Part shown: positions 9,510 to 62,521 of the stretch, in pieces
Layout of the letters: every line of letters starts with the position of its first letter
How positions within the stretch are numbered: the first letter of the stretch is position 1
Assembly: GCF_900099935.1 (NCBI RefSeq)
Contig: NZ_FNEK01000016.1
Location: forward strand, 1 to 64,000
From: Aliiruegeria lutimaris
Lineage (GTDB): Bacteria > Pseudomonadota > Alphaproteobacteria > Rhodobacterales > Rhodobacteraceae
Length of the DNA: 64,000 bases
Direction: 5' to 3'
The notes under the pieces: model-generated
What the model was told of the DNA's origin: nothing
The model's input: the letters and a program-made list of their open reading frames with translations, nothing else
Database searches by the model: none
Made by a program: the position numbers and the translations under genes

Positions 9510-9517
9510 TTGGCCGG

Positions 9518-9590
9518 GGACGGGGGGCTGTCTGCCCCCCGCGCGCCCCGGTCGGGGCGCTCCCCCCGAGGATATTTTTGGACAGAAGAA
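9518..9590 (-). repeat. ATATCC-type intergenic element, copy B (single, inverted)
   Basis: On the minus strand this reads CTTCTTCTGTCCAAAAATAT CCTCGGGGGG, then AGCGCCCCGACCGGGGCGC and GGGGGGCAGACAGCCCCC. It is the same layout as copy A and shares the CAGAC loop of the G/C stem. It follows the lpd stop codon by a few bases and precedes the terminator at 9593-9613. Confidence 0.7.
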
Positions 9591-9592
9591 GA

Positions 9593-9613
9593 GGGCCCCT
9601 TGGGGCCCTTTTT
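9593..9613 (+). terminator. rho-independent terminator of the suc-lpd operon
   Basis: GGGCCCC (9593-9599), a two-base loop, GGGGCCC (9602-9608) and T5 (9609-9613) make a compact intrinsic terminator 84 bp after lpd. The minus strand shows only a weak A-run on the other side, so it acts mainly on the plus strand. It overlaps the last codons of the convergent lipoprotein gene. Confidence 0.85.
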
Positions 9614-9693
9614 CAAATGATGGGGACGAGGGGAACGCCGCCGCAGCCTGCCAGGAGGACAAGCATGGCGGTCAGCGTGGAGATGCGGATCAT
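9613..9693 (-). CDS. 26-residue lipoprotein, coupled to KAS III-like gene
   Basis: The complete frame MIRISTLTAMLVLLAGCGGV plus PLVPII has a positively charged start, hydrophobic core and a perfect lipobox LLAGC, with Cys17 as the lipidation site. The mature peptide would be only about 10 residues. Its ATG overlaps the TGA of the upstream KAS III-like gene as ATGA, which implies translational coupling. It resembles entericidin-like or unannotated mini-lipoproteins by architecture only. The function is unknown. Confidence 0.6.
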   Translation of the reverse strand: MIRISTLTAMLVLLAGCGGVPLVPII

Positions 9694-10817: not shown

Positions 10818-11057
10818 CGCGGGACTCCTTGTCGATCCCCGTCAAAGATCGCTTGTTTACGGGAAGGTCAAGAGGTGCCGGTATCCACAGGTGTCGGACC
10901 CGAGCCTGAGCGGCAAGAAAATGCCGGGCAAGGCCCTCGCGGCTCCTGTCAAAGTGATAGCCTGCGTTGCAGGGGAGAAATCCCGCGGGGCGGGTGCGAT
11001 TGGGCGCGGGCAGGACGCGCCACGGCACACCGGGACTTGCCAGAGCCAACCAATCCC

Positions 11058-11723
11058 TCAGTTCAGATGCAGAAGGCGTTCTTCGAGGCTGTCTTCCAAC
11101 AGCTCCGGCGGGAGCATTTCGCCCAGCCAGTCCAAAAGGGGCAGCAGGCCGGTTGGGTTTCGGTCGAAATCGGCGTGGTCGATGAGAAAACTGCGTTCCG
11201 GATTGGCCGCATGCGCCTTGTGGAAACGCTCGATCGTCATTTCGAGAACATCCGTGACCACGTCCTGGTCCCGGTCCTGCCACCATCCCGAGTGAGACGC
11301 CTCCGCCGGATCTCGGGTGAGGAAGATGATGTGCGGGTCTTCGAAATAGCGAAGCATGAAGCCCAGAACGGCGTCGAAATTCCGGTCCGTCAGCGTCTCG
11401 TCGGTGTAGTTGATTTCCTTGAACCCCGTGATCCGGGTCCCCTCCGGCGGGTTCAGCACGTCGCGCACGAAGCTTCGTGCGAGGGAATGGGCGAAGGCTT
11501 CGGGGTTGGCCTCATTGATGCCGTACCAGGGGTTTCCGGTGAACCGCGCGCGGTTTCCCGAGCGTTCCCGGTGCCGGTCCGCGAGGGCTTCGGCAGCCTC
11601 GGCAAGGCTGCACAGGAGCGCGCCGTTCTGCCCCCGGATACAGGCTCCTTCGATGGCATTGAGCGTTTTGAGCAAAGCCGTGGAACCGGTGCGTCCGAAA
11701 GTGACGATGAAAATATGCTTCAT
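11058..11723 (-). CDS. sulfotransferase family protein
   Basis: The 221-residue protein begins MKHIFIVTFGRTGSTALLKT, whose GRTGST loop is the 5'-phosphosulfate-binding P-loop of PAPS-dependent sulfotransferases. A 3'-phosphate-binding segment fits IIFLTRDPAEASHSGWWQ near residues 133-150. It is compact for the family, and the acceptor is unknown. It stands alone between KAS III and the GlsB-like gene on opposite strands. No signal peptide is seen, so it should be cytoplasmic. Confidence 0.8.
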   Translation of the reverse strand: MKHIFIVTFGRTGSTALLKTLNAIEGACIRGQNGALLCSLAEAAEALADRHRERSGNRARFTGNPWYGINEANPEAFAHSLARSFVRDVLNPPEGTRITGFKEINYTDETLTDRNFDAVLGFMLRYFEDPHIIFLTRDPAEASHSGWWQDRDQDVVTDVLEMTIERFHKAHAANPERSFLIDHADFDRNPTGLLPLLDWLGEMLPPELLEDSLEERLLHLN

Positions 11724-11891
11724 GAAAACAGATCCTTAAATCTTCGGTCTCGCCGTAACATGCACGGGAGCGGGCGGAAAGAGACAGGGGCGCCAGTTTG
11801 TGCGTTTTTGAGTGCCATGATGTGACCGAGCTTTTGGCTTGGTGTGCAACGCTGCAGTGCCTAGGGTTCTTCCATCGGAGTCTTGGGGAGC

Positions 11892-12182
11892 ATGAACGGC
11901 ATGGATGGAGTTTCGCAGGCAGAGACGATGGTTTTCTCGGGGTGGTTGATCGCGATCGTGATCGGGGCCATCGCGGGCTGGTTGGCTGGCAAGCTGGTGG
12001 CGGGCGGCGGTTTCGGTTTCCTGGCCAACACGGTTCTGGGGATCGGCGGCGCGATCCTCGCCAATTTCGCGTTGCCGATGATCGGCGTGCGTTTCGGGAG
12101 CGGCTTTTTCGGCTCCATCGTCGCGGCCTCAATCGGGGCGGCCGCGGTGTTGCTTCTGATCCGGATCATCAAGCGGATCTGA
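11892..12182 (+). CDS. GlsB/YeaQ/YmgE family membrane protein
   Basis: The protein of about 96 residues has three hydrophobic Gly/Ala-rich segments (WLIAIVIGAIAGWLAGKLV, GFLANTVLGIGGAILANFAL, IVAASIGAAAVLLLIRII). This is typical of the transglycosylase-associated stress-protein family of the inner membrane. The start is uncertain: GGGGAG at 11885-11890 is too close to the ATG at 11892 and better spaced for the ATG at 11901, while a TTG at 11883 also keeps the frame. Confidence 0.85.
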   Translation: MNGMDGVSQAETMVFSGWLIAIVIGAIAGWLAGKLVAGGGFGFLANTVLGIGGAILANFALPMIGVRFGSGFFGSIVAASIGAAAVLLLIRIIKRI

Positions 12183-12196
12183 GGGCCGTCGCCAGT

Positions 12197-12847
12197 TCAG
12201 GCGTGCGAAAACTGCCCGAGGAAATCCGCCAGATCGTCCGTGTGGTGATCAATATGGGGCGCAGGCGCCGGGGCCGGTGCGACATGGACCGTCCGCATAC
12301 CCATTTCGAACGGCGCGGCCAGGTTGCGCGGGTCGTCTTCGAACATGGCGGCTCGGGCCGGGTCCAGACCGTCGGCGGTAAAGACAGCCTCGAAGGCAAC
12401 ACGTTCCGGTTTCGGGTGAAAGCCGGCATGTTCCACACCGTAAATCGCGTCGAAAAGCCCCCCCAGACCACGAGCCGCGACCACCCGTTCGGCATAGGGG
12501 CGCGAGCCATTGGTATAGACGATGCGCCGGCCGGGCAGGGCGCGGATGCCGCTGGCAAGGGCCGGGTCCGGTACCAGGTGGCTCAGGTCGATCTCGTGCA
12601 CTTCGTGCAGGTAGGGCGCCGGATCCACCCCATGTTCGCGCATGAGCCCGGCCAGCGTCGTGCCGTATTGGGCCCAGTAATACTTACGCAGCCGGTCGGC
12701 CTCGTCCCGGTCAACCGAAAGCGTGCGCATCACCCAGTCGGTCATGCGAACCTCGATCTGGTCGAAGAGGCGCGCATGCGGCGGATAGAGCGTGTTGTCC
12801 AGGTCGAAGACCCAAGTCGTTACGTGAGAAAAGCGATCGGTCACCAT
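12197..12847 (-). CDS. HAD-superfamily pyrimidine 5'-nucleotidase-like hydrolase
   Basis: The 216-residue protein shows HAD motif I as WVFDLDNTLYPP near the N-terminus, motif II as IVYTNGSRPYAERV, the motif III lysine in HPKPERVAF and motif IV as MFEDDPRNL. DLDNTLYP is typical of the SDT1-type pyrimidine nucleotidase subgroup. The open frame starts at 12883, but the ATG at 12847 (MVTDRFSHVTTWVFDLDNT) gives the usual short N-terminus. It is divergent from the GntR gene. The substrate is inferred from family only. Confidence 0.85.
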   Translation of the reverse strand: MVTDRFSHVTTWVFDLDNTLYPPHARLFDQIEVRMTDWVMRTLSVDRDEADRLRKYYWAQYGTTLAGLMREHGVDPAPYLHEVHEIDLSHLVPDPALASGIRALPGRRIVYTNGSRPYAERVVAARGLGGLFDAIYGVEHAGFHPKPERVAFEAVFTADGLDPARAAMFEDDPRNLAAPFEMGMRTVHVAPAPAPAPHIDHHTDDLADFLGQFSHA

Positions 12848-48016: not shown

Positions 48017-49708
48017 TCAAGCCATGGTCCTGTCGATTGCGGAGGTCGCCACGGCAAATCTCGCGGTGGCGGGATCTGCCTTGTAGAGCCTCCGAAGCGC
48101 GGCGGCCCGGGCGGCAAGCTTCGGGATCTCGTCTATGATCCGATCCGCCTCGTCATCGCTGTGCAGGTAATTGAGGTTGAGCCGGATCCAGCCCGGTTTC
48201 TTCAACTCGTCACCCGCCTCCAATTGGGCGTAAAGCTCCCTGGAAGTTTCCGGGTCCAGCCCGAGCAGCCGGTGTGCGTAGGACCCCGCGCAGGCGCACC
48301 CGTCGCGCGCCTGGATGCCGAGATGATCGCTGAGCATACGGGTGAAAAGCTGGTGGTGGATGCGGTTTCCTTCGGTATCGACAACCCGGAAGGAGAAGAA
48401 CGGCAGCGCCGCCGCGCCCGGAACCTGCCCGAGCAACCCGATGCAGGGGTGATACTTCCATGCCGCGGTCAGCCGGTCTCGCAGCGCGACGTCTCGGGCG
48501 TGGATATGATCGGTGCCGACCGCGTCCTTGACCAGAATCGCCAGCGTGGCGCGGATGTCGCCGATCACGTTGGGCGTGCCGCCTTCTTCGCGATCTTCCA
48601 ACTTGCTGCTGTAGCTCTCGCCCCTTGGGGAGACGAAACTCACCGTGCCGCCGCCCGGCGCGGTGGGAGACTGCCGCTGCACGACGCTGTCGCGCACGAT
48701 CATGATGCCAGAGGCACCGGGGCCGCCGGGGAACTTGTGGAGCGAGAAGACAATGGCATCCTTGGCGGAATCGGCGGCGGGGTTCATGTCCATCTTCAGG
48801 TAGGGGGCGCCGCCGGCATAGTCCCAGACGAACAGTGCGTTGTAGCGCTTGAGCAGTCTGCAGACCGGATCTGGATCGGTGAGTATTCCGGTCACGTTGG
48901 AGGCGGCCGAGAAGCTACCGACGACAAGGTCGCGCGCGTCGAGCGAGGCGGGTTTGCTCTCCAGGTACGTCAGATCCACCCCACCATGCACCCCTTCGTC
49001 GATTTCCAGCACCTCGGCGCCGGTCTCGCGCCAGGGCAGGATGTTCGAGTGGTGCTCGTAGGGGCCGATCAGAACGGTGATCTTTTCCCCCTGCAGGACC
49101 CGCTCGCGGATATCGAGCAAACCGACGATCCGGTTCAGCCCCGCCGTCGCACCGGCCGCCAGTGCGCGCTCGCTTAGCCGCGCGACGTCCTCCGCAAGAA
49201 TGGCAAGCGCCCGGTGGATCGGGGCGTGGTTCTGCGGATTGGCAAGCTGTTGCAGTACCCGCCCCTCGCTGAGCTTGTTGGCAATCGAAATCGGGCTGAA
49301 GACGGTGAACAGGATGGGTACATCCGGAAGCGCTTCCCGGATCAGGCTGATCGCCTGCAATTCGCGCTCGAACGCGCCGCTGTCGAGATCGGCGGGCGCG
49401 AGTTTAGTCCAGTCCGCCACCGTCTGGAACGGCGTGGAGACGACCTTGACCACGCCGCAGTTGGGAATGTCCGAGACGTCGATCTCGGTTCCCTAATCCT
49501 CAATGGCATACATGCCGTTGGGCATGTTCTTGACGAAGTCGAGATCGAAGGTTTTCTGAAACTCCACCGTCGCCGCGGCGATTTTCTCAGCGTCACGGTC
49601 GATGTCGGGAAGATGCGTCCAGAAAGAGAAGAGCCGGTCGCTCTTCTTCAGTCTTCCGGCAAACACCTCTTCGATCTTTCGGCTGTATTTCACAAACCTT
49701 ACCATCAA
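48017..49708 (-). pseudogene. UroD-like::aminotransferase class V fusion with internal TAG
   Basis: The first 71 codons (49493-49708) match the N-terminus of uroporphyrinogen-decarboxylase-like methyltransferases (FSFWTHLPDIDRDAEKIAAA). A TAG at 49493-49495 replaces Tyr in AIED-Y-GTEID. The UroD-like fold continues to about 49155 (SIANKLSEGRVLQQL, LSERALAAGAT). It then turns into a class V aminotransferase/cysteine-desulfurase-like enzyme with PLP-Lys in VFSLHKFPGGPGASG. Both enzymes are incomplete. The shared GAT at the joint suggests an illegitimate deletion. Confidence 0.75.
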
Positions 49709-50899: not shown

Positions 50900-51334
50900 C
50901 CCCTGGAAGCGGGGCGTTTCGCTTCCCCGATGGATCCGCGCAGGGATCCGTGCCGGAAGGAGCCGAACCCAACGGCAATCTTGAAGCCCGCTGACCGCCC
51001 GGACTTGCGCCGGAATGGCCGGTTTCGCGCTGTCGCGCTGGAGCCGTTACCAGACTGTCGGCCGGTCTTGTTTGGCTGCTCCTGAGTGATCCGCTTTGTC
51101 CAGGTTTTGCAGCGCGCACCGTCCGAGTCGTGCGCAACTGGCAATGATCCGGTCCGATTTTCTGCGGGAATCGAGAGATTTTCGCAAAAATACATTATAT
51201 TAATAATTTGAAAAATTTGGGAAAATTTGCATGACCTTACATTTGCTGGATTATGATTGACATAAGTAAGGTTTTTTGATGCTACTGCGTTTGGAACGAG
51301 CGGATGCAGATCCGGAAAACCATGGGAGGAGCCG
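50900..51334. other. intergenic region upstream of the ABC/DhaK operon
   Basis: No gene was found here. The strand changes from GC-rich DNA to an AT-rich block (51165-51265) that holds three phased AATTTG hexamers, CCTTAC/GTAAGG inverted arms (51235-51240, 51266-51271) and a TTGACA at 51257-51262. It is the likely promoter-operator region of the operon starting at 51335. Confidence 0.5.
51201..51230 (+). promoter_or_regulatory. three helically phased AATTTG repeats
   Basis: AATTTG occurs at 51205-51210, 51214-51219 and 51224-51229, within consecutive ten-base units TAATAATTTG, AAAAATTTGG and GAAAATTTGC. One-turn spacing puts all three on the same DNA face. It lies upstream of the TTGACA at 51257 and is the best candidate site for the SorC-type regulator encoded at the operon end. 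Confidence 0.5.
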
Positions 51335-52816
51335 GTGCCAGAGGCGCTTTTGGAGGTGCGCGATCTTACGAAGAACTTCGGAGGTGTCGCTGCCCTGAGT
51401 AATGGCCAATTCACCCTGCGTGCTGGAACGGTCCACGCCCTTTGCGGGGGGAACGGCGCGGGAAAATCGACGTTGCTTACGATCGTCATGGGAATTCAGG
51501 ATCGCGATGGCGGTGTCATTCGGCTCAACGGGCGGGAGGTCGATTTCGACAAACCCTCCGATGCCCGCGCCGCCGGGATCACCATTATCGAGCAGGAGTT
51601 GAGCCCCGTTCCCGCGATGTCGGTTGCCGAAAACATCTTTCTTGGCCGGGAGCCTGTGGGCTTGTTCGGCCGGGTCGATTTCGCAACCATGAACCATAAT
51701 GCGCAGGAGCTGCTGGACAGCCTCAGTTTCGACATCTCGCCCAAGACCCTGATGATGGATCTGACAGTGGCCGAGGTGCAACTCGTGGAGATCGCGAAGG
51801 CGCTGTCCTACGACGCCGAAGTCATCATCATGGACGAACCCACCTCCGCGCTCGGTGAGGCGGAGGTCGATCAGCTCTTCGAGACGATCGAGCGGCTCAA
51901 GGCCGCCGGAAAAGGGATCGTCTATGTCAGCCACCGTCTCTCCGAGATCATGGATGTGGCAGACGAATACACCGTGTTCCGGGATGGGCGCTTCGTTGCC
52001 GATGGCAAGATCGCGGACGTCTCCCGCGAAGAACTGATCCAGATGATTGTCGGCCGGCCTCTCACAGAGGAATTCGTGAAGGAGAACCAGGCAACGAGCG
52101 AGGTCGCTCTCTCCGTATCGGGCCTCAACGCAGCGGGCTGGGTCAAGGACGTCTCCTTCGAGGTCTGCAAGGGCGAGATCCTTGCGCTCTACGGGCTCAT
52201 GGGCTCGGGGCGCAGCGAGATCTTCGAGCGGATCTTCGGTCTGACACAGGATGAAGGCGGCGAGATCCAGTTCTTCGGTGAAAAGGTCCGTATGGCCACC
52301 CCATCCGAAGCGATCAAACGGGGGGTCGCGCTGGTGACCGAGGACCGCAAGGGCACCGGGCTGGTACTCGACGCCGATGTGCGGTCCAACATCTGCATGG
52401 CCCAACTGGAGGAACTCTCTGTAGGGCCGGTCATGCAGAGCGGGCGCGAAAGCGCCGCCGCAAGCCGGATGATCGAGATGTTCGACATCAAGACCCCCAA
52501 TGACCGCCTTCCCGTTTCTGGCCTGTCGGGGGGGAACCAGCAGAAGGTCGTTCTTGGCAAGTGGTTCCTGACCGAACCCAAGGTGCTGCTGCTCGACGAA
52601 CCTACTCGTGGCGTCGATGTCGGCGCAAAGCGGGAAATCTACCGGGTGATCTCGGATTTCGCCCGCGCCGGGGGGGCTGTCGTGATGGTCAGTTCGGAAA
52701 ACGACGAAGTGCTCGGCATGGCGGATCGCGTGCTCATCATGCGTGACGGGAGGGTCAGCGGAATGCTGACGCGTGACGAATTGTCGGCAGAAAAACTCGT
52801 GCACCTGGCAGCGTGA
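51335..52816 (+). CDS. sugar/polyol ABC transporter ATP-binding protein
   Basis: The 493-residue double-ABC protein belongs to the RbsA/XylG class. The N-terminal cassette has Walker A GGNGAGKST, signature LTVAEVQLVEIAKAL and Walker B VIIMDEPTSAL. The second has degenerate Walker A GLMGSGRSE, signature LSGGNQQKVVLGKW and Walker B LLLDEPTRGVDVGAKRE, as usual in this class. It powers uptake through the next gene's permease. The GTG at 51335 follows GGGAGGAG. Confidence 0.95.
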   Translation: MPEALLEVRDLTKNFGGVAALSNGQFTLRAGTVHALCGGNGAGKSTLLTIVMGIQDRDGGVIRLNGREVDFDKPSDARAAGITIIEQELSPVPAMSVAENIFLGREPVGLFGRVDFATMNHNAQELLDSLSFDISPKTLMMDLTVAEVQLVEIAKALSYDAEVIIMDEPTSALGEAEVDQLFETIERLKAAGKGIVYVSHRLSEIMDVADEYTVFRDGRFVADGKIADVSREELIQMIVGRPLTEEFVKENQATSEVALSVSGLNAAGWVKDVSFEVCKGEILALYGLMGSGRSEIFERIFGLTQDEGGEIQFFGEKVRMATPSEAIKRGVALVTEDRKGTGLVLDADVRSNICMAQLEELSVGPVMQSGRESAAASRMIEMFDIKTPNDRLPVSGLSGGNQQKVVLGKWFLTEPKVLLLDEPTRGVDVGAKREIYRVISDFARAGGAVVMVSSENDEVLGMADRVLIMRDGRVSGMLTRDELSAEKLVHLAA

Positions 52817-52842
52817 CAATGACTATTCAAGGAGAATCCACG

Positions 52843-53838
52843 ATGGCAGAAGCGGCAAGCCAGAACCGTGACTTCAAGGCGCTGGCGGCAGAATACGGCC
52901 AGAAATACGGGATCCTGATGGCGCTCATCCTGGTTTGCGTTCTGCTGACCTTCGCCAACGAGTATTTCCTGACCACACGCAACATTCTCAACGTGCTGCG
53001 CCAGACATCCATCAACGGCATCCTTGCGATTGGCATGACCTTCGTCATCCTGACTCGCGGGATCGACCTCTCGGTGGGATCGGTCGTGGCCCTTGCCGGG
53101 GTCGTTTCGGCCTCGCTCGCCACGACATCGACGACAGCCGCGGTCCTAGGCGCACCCTATTTCGCAGCGATTCCGCTTGCCGCGGGCGTGGCGGTAGGCC
53201 TTGCCTGCGGTTGGGTGAACGGGGTGATCGTCGCACGTTTCAACGTGCCGGCCTTCGTCACGACGCTCGGCATGCTGTCTGCGGCGCGCGGCATGACGCT
53301 GCTTTACACCGGCGGCAAGCCCGTCCCGGCGCTGACCGACGGTTTTCGCTATATCGGTACCGGCTCGATCCTCGGTATCCCGATGCCGATCATCCTCTTC
53401 GCGGTGATCTTTCTGGCGGCGCTCTTCGTTCTCAGCGCGACGCGCTTCGGGCGGACGGTCTACGCGGTGGGCGGCAACCCGCATGCGGCGCGGGTCTCGG
53501 GTATCAACATCCGGCGTGTGCGCCTGACGGTCTATGTCATCTCCGGGGCGCTTGCCGGCATCGCCGGGATGATCCTGGCGGCGCGGACAGGTTCGGCGCT
53601 GACACAGGCAGGCATCGCCTATGAACTCGATGCCATCGCGGCTGTGGTCATCGGCGGCACATCGCTCTCGGGCGGCGTCGGCAAGGTGACCGGAACGCTT
53701 ATCGGTGCCCTTCTGATTGCCGTGGTCAATAACGGCCTCGATCTGATGGGCGTGGAATCCTACTACCAGCAAGTCATCAAGGGCGCCCTGATCGTGGCCG
53801 CGGTGATGCTGGACCAGGCTCGGCATAAAGCGGAGTAA
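52843..53838 (+). CDS. sugar/polyol ABC transporter permease
   Basis: The 331-residue RbsC-type permease has about ten helices and the class motifs ILAIGMTFVILTRGIDLSVGS, FVTTLGMLSAARGMTLLYTG and YELDAIAAVVIGGTSLSGGVG. The ATG at 52843 with AAGGAG at 52829-52834 is preferred over upstream ATGs in the same frame. It follows the ATP-binding gene by 26 bp and probably forms a homodimeric channel with it. Confidence 0.94.
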   Translation: MAEAASQNRDFKALAAEYGQKYGILMALILVCVLLTFANEYFLTTRNILNVLRQTSINGILAIGMTFVILTRGIDLSVGSVVALAGVVSASLATTSTTAAVLGAPYFAAIPLAAGVAVGLACGWVNGVIVARFNVPAFVTTLGMLSAARGMTLLYTGGKPVPALTDGFRYIGTGSILGIPMPIILFAVIFLAALFVLSATRFGRTVYAVGGNPHAARVSGINIRRVRLTVYVISGALAGIAGMILAARTGSALTQAGIAYELDAIAAVVIGGTSLSGGVGKVTGTLIGALLIAVVNNGLDLMGVESYYQQVIKGALIVAAVMLDQARHKAE

Positions 53839-53914
53839 GTGAATAAATTCAGTGTTTTGGCGTCCGTGTTCTGCGGGCGGCAGGGTGAAGTGTGCAACAC
53901 TTAGGAGGAGCACC

Positions 53915-54898
53915 ATGACGAAACTGATGAAAACCATGACTCTGGCAGCCGCGCTGCTGAGCGGAACTGCGGCTCTGGCTGACACGCCGAAGATCGGCGC
54001 AGCCGTTTACGGCCTGAACGCCGAATTCATGCAGCTCTGGGCGGCGGCGCTCGAACAGCACCCGGCGGTAACCGAGGGCAAGGTCGACGTGACCATCTTC
54101 GACGGCCGCTATGACGCGCTCGTACAGCAAGAACAGTTCGAGACCATGATCACCCAGGGCTTCGACGCGATCATCTTCGTGCCTATCGACATTGAAGCCG
54201 GTGCCGAAGCCGTTCGCCTGGCCGACGAGGCCGGCATCCCCGTCTTCGGGTCCAACACCCGCGTCAACAGCGACAAGCTGAAGGCCTATGTCGGTTCCGA
54301 CGACGTACAGTCGGGCTACATGGAAGCCAAATACGTTCTCGACAAGATCGGCTGCACCGGCAACGTCGTGGTCATCGAAGGCCCGATCGGCCAGTCGGCC
54401 CAGATCCAGCGCCTCGAAGGCAACCAGAAGGCTCTGGCCGAATGCCCCGATGTGAAGGTCGTCGAGCAGCAGACCGCCAACTGGTCGCGTGCCGAAGCCC
54501 AGACGCTGATGGAAAACTGGCTGACCGCCCATCCCGGCGACATCGCCGGCGTGATCGGCCAGAATGACGAAATGGCGCTCGGTGCGATCGAAGCGATCAA
54601 GGCCGCCGGTCTGAACGTCAACGATTTCGCCATTGCCGGTATCGACGGCGTCACCGACGCGCTCAACGCGGTCAAGGCCGACGAAATGGCTTCGATCCTT
54701 CAGGACGGCTTCGCCCAGGCACAAGGTGCGCTCGACCTCGCCATCAAGGCAGTCGATCCTTCCTACGAGCCGATGTCGGCGATCTGGGAACAATATCCGG
54801 ACATGCCGTGGAATGACGGCGCCGATGCCGAGTACAACGTTCCGTGGACTCCGGTGACCCTGGAGAACGTGGACGCGCTGCTCGAAATGCGCCAGTAA
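53915..54898 (+). CDS. periplasmic sugar/polyol-binding protein
   Basis: The 327-residue protein has a signal peptide cleaved near ALA-DTPKIG and the two-lobed type I periplasmic-binding fold of the RbsB family (FDAIIFVPIDIEAGAEAVRL, AGIPVFGSNTRVN, GVIGQNDEMALGAIEAIKAA). It delivers ligand to the permease. AGGAGGAG before the ATG at 53915 is a very strong ribosome-binding site and a stable hairpin follows the gene, both fitting the high expression of binding proteins. The ligand is likely a small polyol or ketose by context. Confidence 0.93.
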   Translation: MTKLMKTMTLAAALLSGTAALADTPKIGAAVYGLNAEFMQLWAAALEQHPAVTEGKVDVTIFDGRYDALVQQEQFETMITQGFDAIIFVPIDIEAGAEAVRLADEAGIPVFGSNTRVNSDKLKAYVGSDDVQSGYMEAKYVLDKIGCTGNVVVIEGPIGQSAQIQRLEGNQKALAECPDVKVVEQQTANWSRAEAQTLMENWLTAHPGDIAGVIGQNDEMALGAIEAIKAAGLNVNDFAIAGIDGVTDALNAVKADEMASILQDGFAQAQGALDLAIKAVDPSYEPMSAIWEQYPDMPWNDGADAEYNVPWTPVTLENVDALLEMRQ

Positions 54899-54908
54899 CC
54901 TCCCTCCA

Positions 54909-54947
54909 CCCCGGCCCGGACACCCGTTCGCGGGGTTCGGACCGGGG
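54909..54947 (+). promoter_or_regulatory. stem-loop after binding-protein gene
   Basis: CCCCGGCCCGGAC (54909-54921) pairs with GTTCGGACCGGGG (54935-54947), 11 of 13 positions. There is no T-run, so it is more likely an mRNA-stabilising or attenuating stem that raises binding-protein mRNA over the downstream catabolic genes. Confidence 0.6.
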
Positions 54948-54977
54948 CCCTTCAACTTCTAATAGAGGACCTTCGCA

Positions 54978-55745
54978 ATGCCTTCGGGACCCGACACACT
55001 GAACTTCAATTTTCCGCTCGAGGGGAAGACGGCTTTCGTGACCGGAGGCGCTTCCGGGATCGGTGCCGCCATCGCCGAGGCCTTTACCGAAAAAGGCGTC
55101 CGTGTAGCAGTCGTCGACCTTGACGAAGCGGCCGCCAAGGCCCGGGCCGACAGCCTCGAAGGCGCCATCGCCATCGGCTGCAACGTTGCCGACCCCGCCT
55201 CTGTTCAAAAAGCCGCTGATCGCGCAAAGGCCGAACTCGGCCGTATCGACATTCTGGTCAACAGCGCCGGGATCGCGGCCCTCGCCCCGGCCGAAGACAT
55301 CTCCTTCGATTTCTGGAAGCGGACGATCGACGTCAACCTGACCGGCAGCTTCCTCGTCGCCCAGGCCATCGGCCGCATCATGATCGAGCAGGGCGGCGGG
55401 CGTATCATCAACCTCGCCTCGCAGGCCGGCTCCGTCGCCATCGACGAGCACGTCGCCTATTGCTCCTCGAAATTCGGTGTTCTCGGCCTGACCAAGTGCC
55501 TCGCCATCGAATGGGGCGAATGCGGGATCAACGTGAACTCGATCTCGCCCACGGTCGTTCTGACCGAACTCGGCAAGAACGCCTGGGCCGGCGAGAAAGG
55601 CGAGAAGGCCATCGCGCAGATTCCCGTCGGACGCTTCGCCGAACCCTGCGAGATTGCTGCGGCAGCGGTGTTCCTTGCTTCCGAAGGCGCAGCGATGTTC
55701 AATGGCGCCGACCTGATCATCGACGGCGGGTACACGATCAAGTAA
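54978..55745 (+). CDS. GolD/threitol-type SDR polyol dehydrogenase
   Basis: The 255-residue SDR has NAD-binding FVTGGASGIGAAI, NSAGIA, catalytic Ser in NLASQAGSVA and Tyr/Lys in YCSSKFGVLG. The C-terminal ISPTVVLTELGKNAWAG and LIIDGGYTIK are characteristic of the GolD / D-threitol dehydrogenase subgroup, which oxidises small polyols to ketoses and is repeatedly found beside DhaK/DhaL kinases. Oxidation of the imported polyol is inferred. It follows the binding-protein gene by 79 bp and precedes dhaK by 10 bp. Confidence 0.88.
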   Translation: MPSGPDTLNFNFPLEGKTAFVTGGASGIGAAIAEAFTEKGVRVAVVDLDEAAAKARADSLEGAIAIGCNVADPASVQKAADRAKAELGRIDILVNSAGIAALAPAEDISFDFWKRTIDVNLTGSFLVAQAIGRIMIEQGGGRIINLASQAGSVAIDEHVAYCSSKFGVLGLTKCLAIEWGECGINVNSISPTVVLTELGKNAWAGEKGEKAIAQIPVGRFAEPCEIAAAAVFLASEGAAMFNGADLIIDGGYTIK

Positions 55746-55755
55746 GGAACTGAAA

Positions 55756-56748
55756 ATGCAACGTTTTATCAACAATCCCGACGACATCGTCGACGAAACG
55801 GTCGCGGGCTTCGTCCGGGCACATTCCGACATGGTGAAGCTCGACGCCGAGAACAACCGGGTCGTGCTCTCGCAATGGGCGGGCGAGAAGGACCGCGTCG
55901 GCATTGTGACCGGTGGCGGTTCGGGCCACGAGCCGGCCTTCATCGGCTATACCGGCAAGAACATGGTCGACGCCACCGCGGTGGGCGAGCTGTTCTCCTC
56001 GCCGACGGCCAAGAGCTTCCATGACTGCATCAAGGCCGCCAATGGCGGTGCGGGCGTGGCTGTTCTCTACGGCAACTATGCCGGCGACAACATGAACGTG
56101 AAGATGGCCGCCAAGATGGCCAAGAGGGACGGCATCGAGGTCAAGACGGTTGTTGCCAATGACGACGTCTGCTCCGCACCTGCCACCGAGCGCGAAAAGC
56201 GCCGTGGCGTGGCCGGCGAAATCATGATGTGGAAGATCGGCGGCGCCAAGGCCGCGACCGGTGCATCGCTCGACGAGGTCATCGCCACCGCGCAGAAGGC
56301 CATCGACAACTGCCGCTCCGTCGGCGTTGGCCTCGGCCCCTGCACGCTGCCGGCTGTCGGTCATCCGAACTTCGAGATCGAGCCGGGCAAGATGGAAGTC
56401 GGCATCGGCCACCACGGCGAGCCGGGCACCCGCGTCGAGGAACTGAAGACGGCCAATGAAGTGGCCGACGACATGACCAGGATCGTGCTCGACGACCACA
56501 ACCTGCCCGCGGGCACGGAAGTGGCGGTGCTGGTCTCCGGTCTCGGCGCGACGCCGGTCGACGAGCTTTATGTCCTCTTCGACCGGATGGCGAGCCAGAT
56601 CGAGGCTGCCGGGCTCAAGGTCTACAAGGCCTATGTCGGCAACTATTTCACCTCGCTCGAAATGGTTGGCGCGACCCTCACGGTCCTGGCGCTGGATGAC
56701 GAACTCAAGCCGCTTCTGGACATGGACACGGCCTGCCCGGGCTTCTGA
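55756..56748 (+). CDS. dhaK: dihydroxyacetone kinase subunit DhaK
   Basis: The 330-residue subunit binds the ketose covalently as a hemiaminal and hands it to DhaL for phosphorylation. Catalytic residues are intact: H58 in GGGSGHEPAFIGYTG, D111 in GNYAGDNMN and the covalent His220 in GIGHHGEPG. The true substrate may be dihydroxyacetone, erythrulose or another short ketose. No DhaM or ATP-type fused kinase is adjacent, so whether PEP/PTS or ATP is the donor depends on the DhaL partner. Confidence 0.93.
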   Translation: MQRFINNPDDIVDETVAGFVRAHSDMVKLDAENNRVVLSQWAGEKDRVGIVTGGGSGHEPAFIGYTGKNMVDATAVGELFSSPTAKSFHDCIKAANGGAGVAVLYGNYAGDNMNVKMAAKMAKRDGIEVKTVVANDDVCSAPATEREKRRGVAGEIMMWKIGGAKAATGASLDEVIATAQKAIDNCRSVGVGLGPCTLPAVGHPNFEIEPGKMEVGIGHHGEPGTRVEELKTANEVADDMTRIVLDDHNLPAGTEVAVLVSGLGATPVDELYVLFDRMASQIEAAGLKVYKAYVGNYFTSLEMVGATLTVLALDDELKPLLDMDTACPGF

Positions 56749-56759
56749 AGGAGAAATCG

Positions 56760-57398
56760 ATGCAGGAAATCAATAACAAGGGCGCTGGCGGCATCATTTC
56801 TGGTGTCGCCGCCGTGATCGTCGACAACAAGGCCTATCTCTCCGAGATCGACGGAAAGATCGGCGATGGCGATCATGGCGTGAACATGGCCAAGGGGTTC
56901 GGGCGGGCCGCTGACCGGCTCGATCCCGAGGGCACGCTCACCGAGGCGCTGCAAGTGCTCTCGGACGTGCTCATGTCCGAGATCGGCGGTTCCATGGGCC
57001 CGCTCTATGGCATGATGTTCTCGGACATGGCCGACTCGCTCGGCGAGGCGGAGACGATAGACGCGGCGAAGTTCGGGGCAATGATCCGTGCCGGGCTCGA
57101 AGGCGTGCAAGATATCGGCTCGGCCAAGGTCGGTGACAAGACGCTTCTGGATGCCTTCACCCCCGCCGTGGATGCCTTCGATGCGTCCATTGCGGCAGGC
57201 AATACCTTCCCGGAGGCGCTGGTGGCGATGAAGGCGGCAGCGGAGACCGGACGCGACAGCACGATCGACATGGTCGCCAAGGTGGGCCGTTCTTCGCGCC
57301 TCGGTGAGCGGTCGCGTGGGGTCCTCGATGCAGGTGCGACATCCTGCGCGATGATTCTGGGCGCTTTCGCCGAGGATATCACGGCAAGACTATCGTAG
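56760..57398 (+). CDS. dhaL: dihydroxyacetone kinase subunit DhaL (first copy)
   Basis: The 212-residue nucleotide-binding subunit has the metal/ADP motif KIGDGDHGVNMAKGF and GSMGPLYG, then AKVGDKTLLDAFTPAVDAF and RSSRLGERSRGVLDAGATSC. All Asp residues that hold the Mg-nucleotide are present. It starts 11 bp after dhaK with GAAGGAG in front and is its presumed partner. It differs clearly from the second DhaL copy. Confidence 0.93.
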   Translation: MQEINNKGAGGIISGVAAVIVDNKAYLSEIDGKIGDGDHGVNMAKGFGRAADRLDPEGTLTEALQVLSDVLMSEIGGSMGPLYGMMFSDMADSLGEAETIDAAKFGAMIRAGLEGVQDIGSAKVGDKTLLDAFTPAVDAFDASIAAGNTFPEALVAMKAAAETGRDSTIDMVAKVGRSSRLGERSRGVLDAGATSCAMILGAFAEDITARLS

Positions 57399-57439
57399 AA
57401 GGCTTGCCCCCCGGCGCAGAATCCGCGCATCAAGGGTAC

Positions 57440-58084
57440 ATGTCTGAGATCGATAGCACCTACCTGATGGCCTTCTTCCGTCTCGCCGGTGAGCGGCTGG
57501 AAGAGCAGCGTCAAACGCTCTGTTCGCTCGACGGCGAGATAGGCGATGGCGATCACGGGACTTCGATGGCAAACGGCTTCGCGGCCATAAACGCGCGCCT
57601 GCGCGATCTTTCCGCGGAGCCGGCACCGCCGGCGCGGCTTTTGCGAGAAGCCGCTTCGGCTTTTATCGGCGAGGTCGGCGCTACCGTCGGGCCGCTTTAC
57701 GCGACCGGTCTTCTGCAGGGCGCAGCCATGCTTGAAGAGGGTCCGCTGGATGCCCGTCAACTTGGTGACCTTCTTGCCGCTTTCGCAAGAGGGATTGCCA
57801 TGCGCGGAAAGGCCGGGATCGGGGACAAGACCATGCTCGACGCGTGGCTGCCAGCAAGCCATGCCGCGCAGCGCGTTGCAGCCGAGGGCGGGAGCCCTGC
57901 CGAAATTGCTCGTGCGGCGGCCGAGGCCGCCGAAGCGGGCGCTGCCGCCACCACGAGCCTGATCGCGTCCCGCGGCCGCGCTGCGCGCCTGAAGGAACGC
58001 AGCATCGGGCATCCGGATCCCGGGGCCGTTTCCGCATCCCTCATCATCGGAGCCTTCGCGGAGTCCCGCGAAGAACTGGACTGA
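57440..58084 (+). CDS. DhaL-type kinase subunit (second copy)
   Basis: The 214-residue protein keeps LDGEIGDGDHGTSMANGF, GATVGPLYATGLL, KAGIGDKTMLDAWLPASHAA and GRAARLKERSIGHPDPGAVS, so the DhaL active site looks intact. The ATG at 57440 behind AAGGG is preferred to a TTG at 57404. It lies 41 bp after the first DhaL and its stop overlaps the start of the regulator-DhaK fusion by one base (TGATG). It is therefore the natural partner of that fused DhaK domain. Confidence 0.88.
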   Translation: MSEIDSTYLMAFFRLAGERLEEQRQTLCSLDGEIGDGDHGTSMANGFAAINARLRDLSAEPAPPARLLREAASAFIGEVGATVGPLYATGLLQGAAMLEEGPLDARQLGDLLAAFARGIAMRGKAGIGDKTMLDAWLPASHAAQRVAAEGGSPAEIARAAAEAAEAGAAATTSLIASRGRAARLKERSIGHPDPGAVSASLIIGAFAESREELD

Positions 58085-60156
58085 TGGGCCAGCCGCGCAA
58101 GCGGGTGTCGAAAGAGTCTCGAAGCGGACGGGCGCCGCTGCGTTTCGGAGACGATCCGTTGCTCTGGGCAAGCTGGCTCTACTACCAGGAAGGCCTGACC
58201 CAGGGCGAGATCGCCGACGAGCTCGGCATTTCCCGACCGACCGTCAATTCCTACCTCGCGGATGCCCGCGCCAAGGGCATCGTCAATATCTCGATCTCGG
58301 AAGCCCGGTTGCGCGCGGTGACCATTGCGCAGGCGCTCGAAGCCCAGTTCGGGCTTGAAAGCTGTCTCGTCGTGCCGGGCGAGGGCGGGCCACGCCCGCT
58401 GATCGACCGGCTCGGGGCCGCCGCTGCCCAATCGCTGGGTTCCCATCTCCATTCCGGCGACACGGTGGCGATCACCTGGGGCCGGACCATGCTGGCGCTT
58501 GCCGAAGCGGTGAGTGGCACCGAAGCGCGCGATCTCGTGGTCGTGCAGGCGACGGGTGGCACGACCGCTACGATCCCCTACACCCCCGAAGCCTGCGCCA
58601 CGCGTCTTGCGGAAAACACCGGCGCACGTTTCGTGCCGATCTCGGCCCCGGCAATCGTCTCTTCCTCCGAAGCGCGGGAGATCTTGCTGCGGGAGCCGGT
58701 CATCGCCGAGCAGCTCGCGCAGCTCGACCGGGTCACCTGCGTGCTGTTCGGTATCTCCTCGATGCGCCCGGACGCAACGATCCACACCAGCGGGTTCTTC
58801 GACAGTGCGCTGAAGAACAAGGGCTATTTCGACAATGCGGTCGGCGCCATGATGGGGCGTTTCATCGACGCGCAGGGCGCGGCGATCCCCAGCCCGCTCG
58901 ACGACCGTGTCATGGGGATGGAACTCGACCGGCTGCGACAGGTGCCCCGGCGGATCCTGGTGGCCGGCGGTCTGGACAAGGTTCCCCCGATACTTGCCGC
59001 CCTTCGGGGCGGGTTCGTTTCAACCCTGATCACCGATGCGACGACGGGAGAAGGCATCCTGCGGGCAGAGGGGTTTGAGCCCGAAAAGATCGCGCCGAAA
59101 CGGCGCGCCCCGACGCCGTCCGAACCGGCGCTCACCCGCAGTGACCATGTGAAAAAATTCATCAACCGGCCGAAAGACGCCGTGGACGAGGCGCTCACCG
59201 GCGCATTGGCGGCCTTTCCCGAGCATATCGAGCCGATTGGCGGCAGTCTGCGGGCCATTCGCGCCCGGGCCGATAAGCGAGACGGGAAGGTGGGCGTGGT
59301 GATCGGCGGTGGGGCCGGCCATGAACCCGGCTTCATCGGCTTCGTCGGACGCGGGCTTGCCGATGCGGTGGTGGTGGGCAATGTCTTCGCTTCGCCGCCG
59401 CCCGACCGCATCCTGAGCTGTACCCGCGATGCCGACCAGGGGGCCGGGGTTCTCTATATCTACGGCAACTACACCGGCGACGTGATGAACTTCGACATGG
59501 CCGCAGACATGGCCGCCGCCGAGGGCATCGAGGCAAGGACCATCCTGACCACGGACGACATCGCCTCTGCCGGGGCCGATGAGCGCGCCGCACGGCGCGG
59601 GACCGCCGGCAATATCTTCGTGTTCAAAGTGGCGGGCGCGGCCGCGGCGCGGATGTTGCCGCTCGATGAATGCGAGCGTCTGGCCCGCAAGGCAAATGCC
59701 GCTTGCTACACGATCGGTGCCGCGCTGGAGCCCAGCTCGATGCCCGATACCGGGCGCAGGAGCTTCAGCCTCGGGCCGGACGACATGGAGTTCGGTGTCG
59801 GTGTGCACGGAGAGCCGGGCGTCAGCCGTATCCCGCTTCAGAGCGCGGACCGGATCGTCGACCGGATCGTCGACCGGATCTTCGACGAGATGCGACCGGG
59901 GGAGGGCGGCAAGCTCGCGGTGCTGGTCAATTCACTTGGCGGCACGCCGATGATGGAGCTTTTCATCCTCAACCGGCGACTGATGCAGCGGCTCTCCGCG
60001 CGCTCGGTCGACGTCCATACGACGCTGTTGGGGCACTATTTCACGTCGCTCGACATGGTCGGTGCCTCGATCACGCTGATGGCGCTGGACGAGGAACTCG
60101 CCGGCTTGCTGGATGACCCCTGCAACGGCTTCGCGTGGATGAAGCAGGGCCGTTAG
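58084..60156 (+). CDS. SorC-type transcriptional regulator fused to DhaK
   Basis: The 690-residue fusion has an N-terminal HTH (LTQGEIADELGISRPTVNSY, residues 38-57), a SorC-family sugar-binding effector domain (about 80-335) and a full DhaK domain (about 353-690). The DhaK part retains all catalytic residues: H413 in GGGAGHEPG, D466 in GNYTGDVMN and H575 in GVGVHGEPG. One protein can thus bind DNA and a ketose. It may be a kinase, a sensor or both. It is the last gene of the operon, overlapping the second dhaL stop. Confidence 0.93.
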   Translation: MGQPRKRVSKESRSGRAPLRFGDDPLLWASWLYYQEGLTQGEIADELGISRPTVNSYLADARAKGIVNISISEARLRAVTIAQALEAQFGLESCLVVPGEGGPRPLIDRLGAAAAQSLGSHLHSGDTVAITWGRTMLALAEAVSGTEARDLVVVQATGGTTATIPYTPEACATRLAENTGARFVPISAPAIVSSSEAREILLREPVIAEQLAQLDRVTCVLFGISSMRPDATIHTSGFFDSALKNKGYFDNAVGAMMGRFIDAQGAAIPSPLDDRVMGMELDRLRQVPRRILVAGGLDKVPPILAALRGGFVSTLITDATTGEGILRAEGFEPEKIAPKRRAPTPSEPALTRSDHVKKFINRPKDAVDEALTGALAAFPEHIEPIGGSLRAIRARADKRDGKVGVVIGGGAGHEPGFIGFVGRGLADAVVVGNVFASPPPDRILSCTRDADQGAGVLYIYGNYTGDVMNFDMAADMAAAEGIEARTILTTDDIASAGADERAARRGTAGNIFVFKVAGAAAARMLPLDECERLARKANAACYTIGAALEPSSMPDTGRRSFSLGPDDMEFGVGVHGEPGVSRIPLQSADRIVDRIVDRIFDEMRPGEGGKLAVLVNSLGGTPMMELFILNRRLMQRLSARSVDVHTTLLGHYFTSLDMVGASITLMALDEELAGLLDDPCNGFAWMKQGR
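59848..59883 (+). repeat. three 12-bp tandem repeats in the DhaK domain
   Basis: GACCGGATCGTC occurs at 59848-59859 and 59860-59871, then GACCGGATCTTC at 59872-59883. The units encode DRIV, DRIV, DRIF within the fused DhaK domain just after the covalent-His segment. The in-frame expansion adds four-residue steps to a helix. Confidence 0.85.
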
Positions 60157-60163
60157 GGGGGCG

Positions 60164-62521
60164 TCAGCTCCGAGCGGACAGTTCCAGAAGCCTGGCCCGG
60201 AGATCGAGGAGTTGAAGTTCCAGCCGGGAAACCTCTTCGACAGACAGGATTTCTTCTCCCTCGTCGGCTCGGGTTTCGATATCGCGGGCCCATTGCGATA
60301 TCTCGTTCAAACCAAGCATTCCGGTAGATCCGGCAATGGCGTGGGCGGCTGCCGAGACCTCCTGCCGGTCTTCCCGGGAGACGCCGTTGCGCAGGGCCTC
60401 CAGCCGGGCCGGGGTGGAGGTCGCAAAAGCATTGATGATCCGCTGGCTCCGATCCGGGCCGAGATAGGACATGTGCTGGCGGAGCGCGGAAAGATCAGTA
60501 TCGGCCACGCTCGCCGTCACCTCGCTGGGCGCTTCCGAGCGCGTTTCGGCCAGGCAATGCGCGGGCAGCAGGTGGCGGATCGCCCGCGACAGGTCCTCCG
60601 TATCATACGGTTTGCCGAGCACGCCGTCCGGTGCCGTCCCACCTGTTGCCCCGGCTTTCACGTCGCCAACCGACGCCGTGACAATGACGATCGGGACATC
60701 GGAAATGGGGCTCTCGGGCAAGGCACGGATCTGCGCAACCAGTTCCAGACCGGAGACGCCTGGCATGCGGTTGTCACTGAGCACGAGGTCGAACGTTCCG
60801 GACCGAAGCTGCTCGATCGCGTCCGCCGCCGAGGCGACGGAGGTCGCAACATGGCCGAGTTTTTCCAGGAACCCGGTGGCAACGGCCCGGTTCACCTCGT
60901 CATCGTCGACCACCAGCACCCGCGCTCCTACCGGCTCCGATGGCGGCGCGATAGGTTCGGCTTCCGATGCGGCCAGCTCCAGCGGCAGGTCCACCTCGAA
61001 GACGCTGCCGCCGTCGGGATTGGCGCCACAGCGGATTTCCCCTCCAAGGGACGCGACAATCTTGCGGCAGATCGCGAGCCCAAGCCCGACACCACCCTTA
61101 AGCGTTCCGCCGTGCCTGTCATGTTGGGTGAAGGGATCGAACAGCCAGTCGCTTGGCCCGTCCGGCAGGCCCACGCCGGTATCGATCACCTCGAAACGTA
61201 CCCAGCCGTCCGGGCGGGTTTCGACTGCCAGCGGTGTTACGCGCACCGTGATCTCGCCCGTTTCGGTGAACTTGACGGCGTTGTGAGAAAGGTTCAGCAG
61301 CACCTGCCGGATCATGGAGGTGTCGCCGCGCAGCTTCGCCGGCAGGTCAGGGGCGATCTGCGTTTCCAGTCTCAGGCCCTTTTCGGCGGCGGGCCGATCC
61401 ACCACCATGAGGACCTGGCGTATCAGCCCGGCGAGGTCGAAATCCTCCGGCACGGGGACACGCCCGCCGACCTCGGCTTGGGAGAAGTCGAGAATATCGC
61501 CGACCACGCCCGCCAGCAATTCCCCGGACGAGATGATGCCATCCACATGCCGGGATTGGTCGGGGGAAAGCGGGGTATCCCGCAGCAGGCGCGCAAGCCC
61601 CAGAACGCCGGCAATCGGGGTGCGGATCTCGTGGCTCATCGCGGCGAGGAAGGTCGATTTGGCGTGGTCCGCGGCCTCGGCCCGGCGCAAGGCGCGCTTA
61701 TACTCGGAAACGTCGTTCAGGATGATGACGGTTCCGTCGAACTTGTGGCTGATATCCAGCATCTTCTGGATATTGACGTTGAACTCCCGCGGGCCCGACA
61801 GGGTTTCGACTACCGTGTCATAGCTGCCTTCGGAGGCCCCTTCGAGCAGGGCCGCGATCTGGGCGTTCAGAAGCGGGCTGTTCAGGGCGCCGTAATAGGA
61901 CGCACCGGGGGCCACATCGCCATAGAACAGGCGATGCGCCGCATGGTTGAGATGGGTGGGGCGGTGATTGGCATCGAGCAGCACGACCGGTTCCCGGATG
62001 CTCTCGAAGATCGTCAGGTACTTGTTCTTCTCGTTGGTCAGGTTCCGGGCACGGTTCTGAAGGTCGCGCAGGCGATCGGCGTTGGAGGCCGAGTTCCACT
62101 CGCCGCACAAGCCGATCTCCACATGGTCGAAGAAATCCAGAAAGTAGTCGCGATAGCGCCGGGCGTCTGCCTCCGGCATCTGGTTCTCGTAGATGAGATC
62201 GAGATAGGCGCGCCGGTAGTATTTCAGCAGCCCGAGAAAGTCGGTGAGTTGCACGCCGCGGGCGCGGTGGCGAAGCGCCTGTTCGACGCCGAATTCGACG
62301 ATGCTGTTTCGCGCCCTGCCGAAGCCGGCTTCGCGGGGCGACGTCGTGTCGGCCGCCGCAATCGCTTCGAGGATCGGTCCCGACAGGCCGCAAATGGAGG
62401 CCCGCCAGGCCTCGCGCAGGGTCGAGGTATATTCCGAGTAGCCCCGTTCGACCGCGTATTGGACGACCCGGTCCACGAGCCAGTCCTCGTTTTCAACGAT
62501 CAGCGTTTCGAGCGTCTTCAT
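60164..62521 (-). CDS. hybrid sensor histidine kinase with REC and HPt
   Basis: The 785-residue soluble kinase has a helical N-terminal region (about 1-150) resembling RsbR-type sensor folds. A PAS domain (TIFESIREPVVLLDANHRPT, about 168-187), HisKA with AAMSHEIRTPIAGVLG, HATPase (GGVGLGLAICRKIVASLGG), REC with Asp in DLVLSDNRMPGVSGLEL and HPt with His in AAAHAIAGSTGMLGL follow. No membrane segment is seen. The layout is TorS-like. It follows the cytochrome gene by 3 bp and probably controls the reductase locus. No response regulator is in view. Confidence 0.88.
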   Translation of the reverse strand: MKTLETLIVENEDWLVDRVVQYAVERGYSEYTSTLREAWRASICGLSGPILEAIAAADTTSPREAGFGRARNSIVEFGVEQALRHRARGVQLTDFLGLLKYYRRAYLDLIYENQMPEADARRYRDYFLDFFDHVEIGLCGEWNSASNADRLRDLQNRARNLTNEKNKYLTIFESIREPVVLLDANHRPTHLNHAAHRLFYGDVAPGASYYGALNSPLLNAQIAALLEGASEGSYDTVVETLSGPREFNVNIQKMLDISHKFDGTVIILNDVSEYKRALRRAEAADHAKSTFLAAMSHEIRTPIAGVLGLARLLRDTPLSPDQSRHVDGIISSGELLAGVVGDILDFSQAEVGGRVPVPEDFDLAGLIRQVLMVVDRPAAEKGLRLETQIAPDLPAKLRGDTSMIRQVLLNLSHNAVKFTETGEITVRVTPLAVETRPDGWVRFEVIDTGVGLPDGPSDWLFDPFTQHDRHGGTLKGGVGLGLAICRKIVASLGGEIRCGANPDGGSVFEVDLPLELAASEAEPIAPPSEPVGARVLVVDDDEVNRAVATGFLEKLGHVATSVASAADAIEQLRSGTFDLVLSDNRMPGVSGLELVAQIRALPESPISDVPIVIVTASVGDVKAGATGGTAPDGVLGKPYDTEDLSRAIRHLLPAHCLAETRSEAPSEVTASVADTDLSALRQHMSYLGPDRSQRIINAFATSTPARLEALRNGVSREDRQEVSAAAHAIAGSTGMLGLNEISQWARDIETRADEGEEILSVEEVSRLELQLLDLRARLLELSARS

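Follow-up and report, generated by a model that had tools for sequence, protein, structure and literature searches.

A SorC-DhaK fusion in a polyol operon of Aliiruegeria lutimaris: a candidate repressor-kinase with a predicted paired operator

We analyzed a 64,000-nucleotide stretch of the genome of the alphaproteobacterium Aliiruegeria lutimaris (contig NZ_FNEK01000016.1, positions 1 to 64,000; hereafter the window) and in particular the single operon at 51335-60156 on the forward strand, whose last gene encodes a fusion of a SorC-family regulator to a DhaK-type kinase subunit. The operon begins with an rbs-type ATP-binding cassette (ABC) sugar importer, consisting of an RbsA-type ATPase (51335-52816; best NCBIfam model RbsA, 544.8 bits, below the cut-off of 745), an RbsC-type permease (52813-53838; NCBIfam ribose permease, 317.4 bits, below the cut-off of 398) and a periplasmic sugar-binding protein (53915-54898; Pfam Peripla_BP_4, 178.7 bits; start codon picked by eye). 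These are followed by a polyol dehydrogenase of the GolD/DthD family, a short-chain dehydrogenase/reductase (54978-55745; NF005309, 367.2 bits, above the cut-off of 286), a stand-alone DhaK (DhaK1, 55756-56748; Pfam Dak1, 371.3 bits), and two DhaL proteins, DhaL1 (56760-57398) and DhaL2 (57440-58084), which scored 170.4 and 165.2 bits with TIGR02365, both above the cut-off of 138.3. The ATG start of dhaL2 at 57440 has an in-frame TTG before it at 57404. The gene for the 690-residue fusion (58084-60156) comes last. An earlier note on this DNA had described this set of genes, and we found all of them, on one strand and in the order given there, along with the one-base overlap reported between dhaL2 and the fusion gene (TGA at 58082-58084 and ATG at 58084-58086 have one base in common). 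Scans of the window returned 2 promoters, compared to a shuffle mean of 1.4, and 5 terminators, compared to 7.1. These counts are near the shuffle level, and the scans are therefore uninformative.

The N-terminal part of the fusion has the domain arrangement of the SorC family, as found by Pfam, alignment and fold. A helix-turn-helix (HTH; 58165-58293, approximately residues 28-70) that aligns with the structures of DeoR, LsrR and SorC is followed by a sugar-binding effector domain (58318-59061, residues 79-326; Pfam Sugar-bind, 195.8 bits), and residues 28-328 as a whole can be aligned to DeoR, LsrR and SorC. By our reading of the alignment, K299 of the effector domain corresponds to the pocket lysine of these three proteins, and it is kept in all 38 aligned fusions (37 distinct). 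A flexible linker (59086-59139, residues 335-352), variable in length among fusions, leads to the DhaK domain (59200-60126, residues 373-681; Pfam Dak1, 371.2 bits). An AlphaFold2 model of the fusion, made from an alignment of 29 sequences (A2), had a predicted local distance difference test score (pLDDT) of 80.6 and a predicted template modeling score of 0.70, with residues 335-352 disordered (pLDDT <50). It resembled both DhaK structures (3ct4, 3pnl) and SorC-family structures (8r7y, 4go1, 2w48). The catalytic residues attributed to both DhaK parts in the earlier note are present and conserved: H58, D111 and H220 of DhaK1 in 26 of 26 DhaK1 rows, and H413, D466 and H575 of the fusion in 38 of 38. 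From its sequence and modeled fold, the fused domain is a Dak1 kinase subunit, although both it (365 bits) and DhaK1 (346.1 bits) are outside the strict DhaK equivalog TIGR02363, which has a cut-off of 406.25. Its score with the DhaQ co-activator model TIGR02362 was 216.7 bits, as compared to a cut-off of 413.25.

The closest named relative, Aliiruegeria sabulilitoris, has a 94% identical fusion in an identical gene order, which makes an assembly artefact unlikely. The ratio of nonsynonymous to synonymous substitution rates between the two species was 0.00 for the HTH, 0.09 for the effector domain and 0.06 for the DhaK domain. By this comparison, both halves of the fusion are under purifying selection.

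A predicted paired operator is located upstream of the operon at 51237-51269. It consists of two TGACAWWTGTCA-like palindromes with a spacing of 21 bp, and its right half overlaps a -35 hexamer, TTGACA (51257-51262), that is apparent from the sequence and was not listed by the consensus promoter scan. We found that the promoters of fusion operons that begin with ABC importer genes have TGACAWWTGTCA-like palindromes, often in two copies 20-22 bp apart, with one copy often over TTGACA. The consensus was picked after viewing 17 of these promoters (L031, with 41 bases, was left out). A match with no more than two mismatches was present in 16 of these 17; 40 shuffles gave 0.8 on average and at most 3 of 17. 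An independent test is provided only by 20 held-out loci and 51 controls. In this test, a pair with no more than six mismatches was found in 17 of the 20 held-out loci (all but L052, L058 and L110) and in none of the 51 control loci with unfused DhaK-DhaL, the best of which had seven mismatches. The held-out set consisted of 19 fused loci and one unfused pair (L046) and included some close kin of the training loci, and some of the controls were shorter than 20 kb. The TTGACA part of the operator cannot be told apart from the -35 box, a confounding that does not affect the second copies or the spacing.

In the 64-kb window, the pair at 51237-51269 was the best, with six mismatches, and the next had eight. 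The segment previously proposed as the operator, 51201-51230, was not among the best three pairs, and the conserved pair starts 7 bases past its end. A scan of the 5.8-Mb genome with a paired pattern that takes in the window site gave one match with no more than two mismatches, that of this operon (control, 0), and a wider regulon was rejected on this result. A stricter paired pattern, which does not take in the window's own site, had no match in the genome. The pair is directly 5' of the fusion gene in four loci (L041-L044), and many others have it ahead of an operon or between operons; at L040, the best pair is beside another SorC gene, and the pair before the DhaKL genes has five mismatches. 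SorC-family regulators have two half-operators before the operon that they control, and such pairs are predicted here. On these grounds it is highly likely that the fusion is an autoregulating DNA binder. In two loci with a fusion, operator pairs were also present close to where unfused SorC genes start (L040:14108 and L042:16832), and a sister regulator may share the site there.

A DhaL gene is located within 400 bp of the fusion gene in 41 of 42 fusion loci, on the 5' side in most Rhodobacter-type loci and on the 3' side in most Rhizobium-type loci. The exception, L030, is at a contig end and has only 142 bp of upstream sequence. In L038 and L058, the sole DhaL found adjoins a second, stand-alone DhaK. 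The motif GD[AG]DHG was present in 27 of 29 proteins labelled DhaL1 and 94 of 98 labelled DhaL2. A second DhaK was found within 9 kb of the fusion in 32 of the 42 loci and was not found near the fusion in L041-L045, with approximately 9 kb of flank on each side. We counted Dak1 domains in six genomes. The fusion was the only one found in four of them (those of L041-L044), and in these genomes it is expected to act as the kinase subunit of the pathway; five were counted in the genome of L045 and four in that of the split locus L046. From this and the conserved residues, we consider it quite probable that the fusion is an active kinase subunit, and DhaL2 is its likely partner. The earlier note had allowed for phosphoenolpyruvate (PEP) as donor. 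The DhaM model TIGR02364 had no matches in the genome (controls matched in 3 of 14), and a DhaKLM system dependent on the PEP phosphotransferase system was rejected on this basis; without a DhaM match, ATP is the expected donor.

The kinase genes around the fusion differ in several other loci. In L034, L038, L050, L052 and L058, the stand-alone DhaK next to the fusion is not DhaK1 and instead belongs to the group that is sister to the fused DhaK, and L050 also has genes for a PfkB-type kinase, a solute-binding protein and an ABC permease near the fusion. A second fusion in a same-genus genome (L113, G003:C79) is accompanied by DhaL1 and DhaL2 and by genes for triose-phosphate isomerase (TIM) and RpiB, and DhaK1 was not found within 9 kb of it.

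DhaK1 and the fused DhaK are 42% identical. We made trees from 98 of 136 DhaK rows and 92 of 136 DhaL rows, omitting many Mesorhizobium-type and some repeated loci. In the DhaK tree, which had 41 fused rows (three fused loci entered twice), DhaK1 was in a clade of 26 rows (100 in the Shimodaira-Hasegawa-like approximate likelihood-ratio test, SH-aLRT). Another clade contained 37 fused rows (98) and, like its unfused sisters, was separate from DhaK1. The remaining four fused rows, L041-L044, were beside unfused ones (93). By sequence comparison, the two DhaKs are deep paralogs of separate descent, and the low identity and separate clades rule out a local duplication. The earlier statement that both fusion and duplication can be seen directly holds for the fusion, but the duplication is not a local one. 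The DhaL tree separated a DhaL1 clade (27 rows, 99) from DhaL2, a split broadly parallel to that of the DhaKs, in support of DhaK1 pairing with DhaL1 and the fusion with DhaL2.

The trees differed on whether the fusion arose once or twice. On the DhaK tree, the fused state required two changes, and a single fused clade appeared in 1% of 200 bootstrap trees but was not rejected by the approximately unbiased test (p = 0.209). In the SorC tree, the fused rows made up one clade (37 rows, 96/93) with one change and no reversal within it, and L041-L044 branched first among the fusions. A single fusion event is the simpler reading of these sequences, though unproven. The earliest branches of the fusions are the loci in whose genomes the fusion is the only Dak1 domain found, and the fused DhaK probably served the pathway first, with DhaK1-DhaL1 a later addition. 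As sister to the 37 fused SorC rows, the tree placed the unfused SorC from L046 (99/85), with a long branch of 0.86 flagged by the program as unsure. In L046, the SorC gene stops approximately 100 bases before the TTG that would start dhaK, and dhaL is next. This TTG is behind a GAGGAA-like ribosome site, identified by eye, and a GTG at 8451 is another possible start. The adjacent sorC and dhaK genes of L046 are plausibly the pre-fusion state.

Taken together, the gene order, domains, catalytic and pocket residues, DhaL adjacency and operator-like pair lead us to propose, from sequence comparison, that the fusion is a bifunctional repressor-kinase that is autoregulated and de-repressed by the ketose-phosphate it helps make. 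We assign this reading a probability of approximately 0.5. The SorC half would bind the half-operator pair over the -35 hexamer and repress the whole operon, including the fusion's own gene. The GolD/DthD dehydrogenase would oxidize the imported polyol to a ketose, most likely erythrulose from threitol or erythritol, and the DhaK half, with DhaL2 and ATP, would phosphorylate that ketose. The phosphorylated ketose would then bind the tethered SorC effector domain and cause release from the operator. DhaK1-DhaL1, which descends separately, would provide another kinase that may act on the opposite enantiomer or carry the bulk of the flux.

The identity of the effector and substrate can be approached from known regulators and neighboring genes. 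Dihydroxyacetone phosphate (DHAP) is the product of DhaK acting on dihydroxyacetone. In the available text of PMC11229326, SorC effector domains are termed phosphosugar-binding and DHAP is reported to de-repress CggR. A ketose-phosphate product as the effector is a tentative assignment at slightly less than even odds, and product sensing is the most economical reading, not an established one. The dehydrogenase, together with neighboring isomerases, indicates a C4 ketose, which we favor slightly as the substrate; dihydroxyacetone is possible. TIM- and/or RpiB-like isomerase genes were found near 8 of 42 fusions. By our count, 43 of the 49 unfused sister loci also have them nearby, many of these loci being from close Mesorhizobium relatives. 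In L043 and L044, a TIM-like gene follows DhaL2 on the opposite strand, at a distance of approximately 0.8 kb from the fusion; L042 has one at 7.4 kb. Near one unfused sister kinase (L051:2338-3672, Mesorhizobium) there is a match to the 3-oxo-isoapionate kinase OiaK, with 464.5 bits and a cut-off of 700. According to the available part of PMC12780249, sets of transporters and kinases that handle free tetroses have yet to be reported.

Several observations weigh against the proposed repressor-kinase. The fusion position that aligns, by our count, with Asp243 of LsrR, presumably a pocket residue, is never Asp in 38 fusions (S in 20, V in 12, A in 4, and C and T in 1 each), indicating that the pocket differs from that of LsrR. 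Only 2 of 16 unfused SorC relatives have Asp at this position, so it does not define the family. We take EryD to be a SorC-type regulator as well. In an E. coli reporter strain, EryD responded to added erythritol (PMC10190533). The available text of that paper names no ery kinase in the strain, so that the effector was apparently unphosphorylated and a phosphosugar effector is no rule. The linker is predicted to be disordered, and no coupling of the two halves is visible in the model. The window operon has no TIM or RpiB genes, and none were seen around 34 of the 42 fusions, some of which have short flanks. Those of this genome are on another contig, away from the fusion operon, at a more complete tetrose-type locus (L108, G000:C109, approximately 8159-12286) that has DhaK-DhaL in one frame with TIM-like and RpiB-like genes and has no operator pair with six or fewer mismatches. 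Single operator sites (no more than one mismatch) discriminate less than pairs, with 13 of the 20 held-out loci and 11 of the 51 controls having one. Finally, the four sole-Dak1 genomes, from a count of six for which completeness is not stated, are in a branch whose DhaK is placed with unfused DhaKs by the best tree, and the findings there may not apply to this operon.

Some of these observations are consistent with a fusion that serves only co-expression, with halves that act independently. The SorC half would sense the polyol, the free ketose or a phosphate from any source, the DhaK half would be an ordinary kinase subunit, and the tether would have no role in signaling. The disordered linker of variable length and the erythritol response of EryD, as far as that paper is available, fit such an arrangement, as does the arrangement in L046, the nearest unfused relative, whose two genes are set apart by one stop codon and a short spacer. 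A weak point against it is that the fused SorC rows are one clade without reversal, where a tether of no consequence could have been lost. We regard this explanation as rather improbable.

A third possibility, and an unlikely one, is that the DhaK half is a ketose sensor that binds the ketose covalently and docks DhaL2, and that the adduct or the state of DhaL switches the SorC half, with catalysis secondary. Regulatory relatives of DhaK are known, and the complex of DhaR(N) with DhaK (4lrx, 4lry) and DhaQ (2iu4, 2iu6) were among the fold matches. H575, which aligns with what we take to be the adduct-forming histidine of DhaK, is invariant in the 38 fusions, and the pocket Asp of LsrR is missing from them. 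On the other side are the retained catalytic residues and nearby DhaL, the low DhaQ score, the sole-Dak1 genomes, and the SorC half's own conserved effector domain. The earlier note had favored a regulator of this kind, one that would report on substrate and phosphorylation state at once. Its regulator-DhaK fusion, with a full triad, DhaL in 41 of 42 loci and an operator-like site, is upheld; the sensor of adduct and donor state is not singled out, given the sole-Dak1 genomes, the separate effector domain and the missing DhaM. That the fused DhaK is a decaying spare copy of DhaK1, or the fusion an artefact of gene calling or assembly, might be suggested by the second DhaK near most fusions, but is highly improbable and refuted as far as sequence can do so by purifying selection on both halves, the separate ancestry of the two DhaKs, the intact active site and the recurrence of the fusion in many genera and on plasmids among the matches listed.

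Repressors normally await a metabolite made by free enzymes. With an enzyme as part of the repressor, induction could be coupled to substrate turnover by the protein on the DNA. A fuller version, which we consider doubtful as a whole, is a self-inducing repressor whose kinase half makes the inducer and whose SorC half reads it, born from adjacent sorC and dhaK genes and joined by a second kinase later in most operons. In this version, flux through the active site of the repressor itself, rather than the substrate pool, would switch the operon. With an operator-like site, a likely partner in DhaL2, a candidate pre-fusion relative and sole-Dak1 genomes now named, the case is testable, and it offers a way into the study of how Alphaproteobacteria use tetroses and tetritols.

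The fusion shares features with several known systems. DeoR, CggR (Bacillus subtilis) and LsrR (E. coli) have the HTH and effector domain, the conserved pocket lysine and paired half-operators; they are stand-alone regulators, and the Asp243 position of LsrR is not Asp in the fusions. In DhaR-DhaK-DhaL (E. coli) and DhaQ-DhaS (Lactococcus lactis), DhaK-type proteins help control their own operon (structures 4lrx, 4lry and 2iu4). In these systems, the regulator and the kinase are separate proteins and the regulators are outside the SorC family, and the fusion is far below the DhaQ cut-off. NadR, PutA and BirA are repressor-enzyme fusions in one polypeptide, with no SorC or DhaK domain and in other pathways. 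Mycolicibacterium smegmatis has a D-threitol pathway with DthD, and the ery loci use another kinase. The window operon resembles tetritol pathways in its GolD/DthD dehydrogenase, which is above the cut-off, and in the TIM- and RpiB-like genes near some fusions. As described in the available parts of published accounts, erythritol loci carry a tpiB-rpiB module and the ery loci of Brucella and Rhizobium have a separate regulator, EryD, unlike the fusion, and the window operon is without isomerases. CggR, as far as the text cited above is available, answers to DHAP, which we count as a further likeness.

The fusion as such is no discovery, because RefSeq already has the product name 'bifunctional sugar-binding transcriptional regulator/dihydroxyacetone kinase subunit DhaK'. 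This annotation has the same architecture but is a name only, without operator, partner or mechanism. The earlier note had stated that no mechanism was described, and we found no study of or experiment on a SorC-DhaK fusion in the open-access literature, among the top-ranked matches and with few subscription journals covered; the statement holds in this sense, and the fusion itself was already a standing product name. The Sinorhizobium meliloti locus tags SMb20312-20317, guessed from position, were not found to be mentioned in open-access papers. What is new here is the operator, the partner, the ancestry and the sole-Dak1 evidence; the architecture was known as annotation.

Full-length fusions were found in 4 of 8 same-genus genomes, 0 of 51 other relatives, 0 of 384 other genomes of the class sample and 4 of 397 other genomes of the phylum sample, all four within the class; at most two to three candidates were scored per genome in the class and phylum samples, and misses are possible. 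The contig scan for fusions covered the matches listed and is no census. In PLSDB, 257 plasmid records matched at an E value of 1e-60, and 103 of these cover at least 80% of the fusion protein. Sixty of the 257 matching rows were listed: 16 have the RefSeq bifunctional name, 3 say dhaK and 41 are without a listed gene. The plasmid rows with the RefSeq name include Thalassospira, Ponticoccus, Sinorhizobium, Ensifer and Paracoccus.

Two reverse-strand reading frames lie on either side of the operon. A 785-residue frame at 60164-62521 adjoins it and appears by eye to encode a hybrid histidine kinase with a receiver domain, and a 478-residue frame at 48017-49453 resembles, also by eye, a class V aminotransferase.

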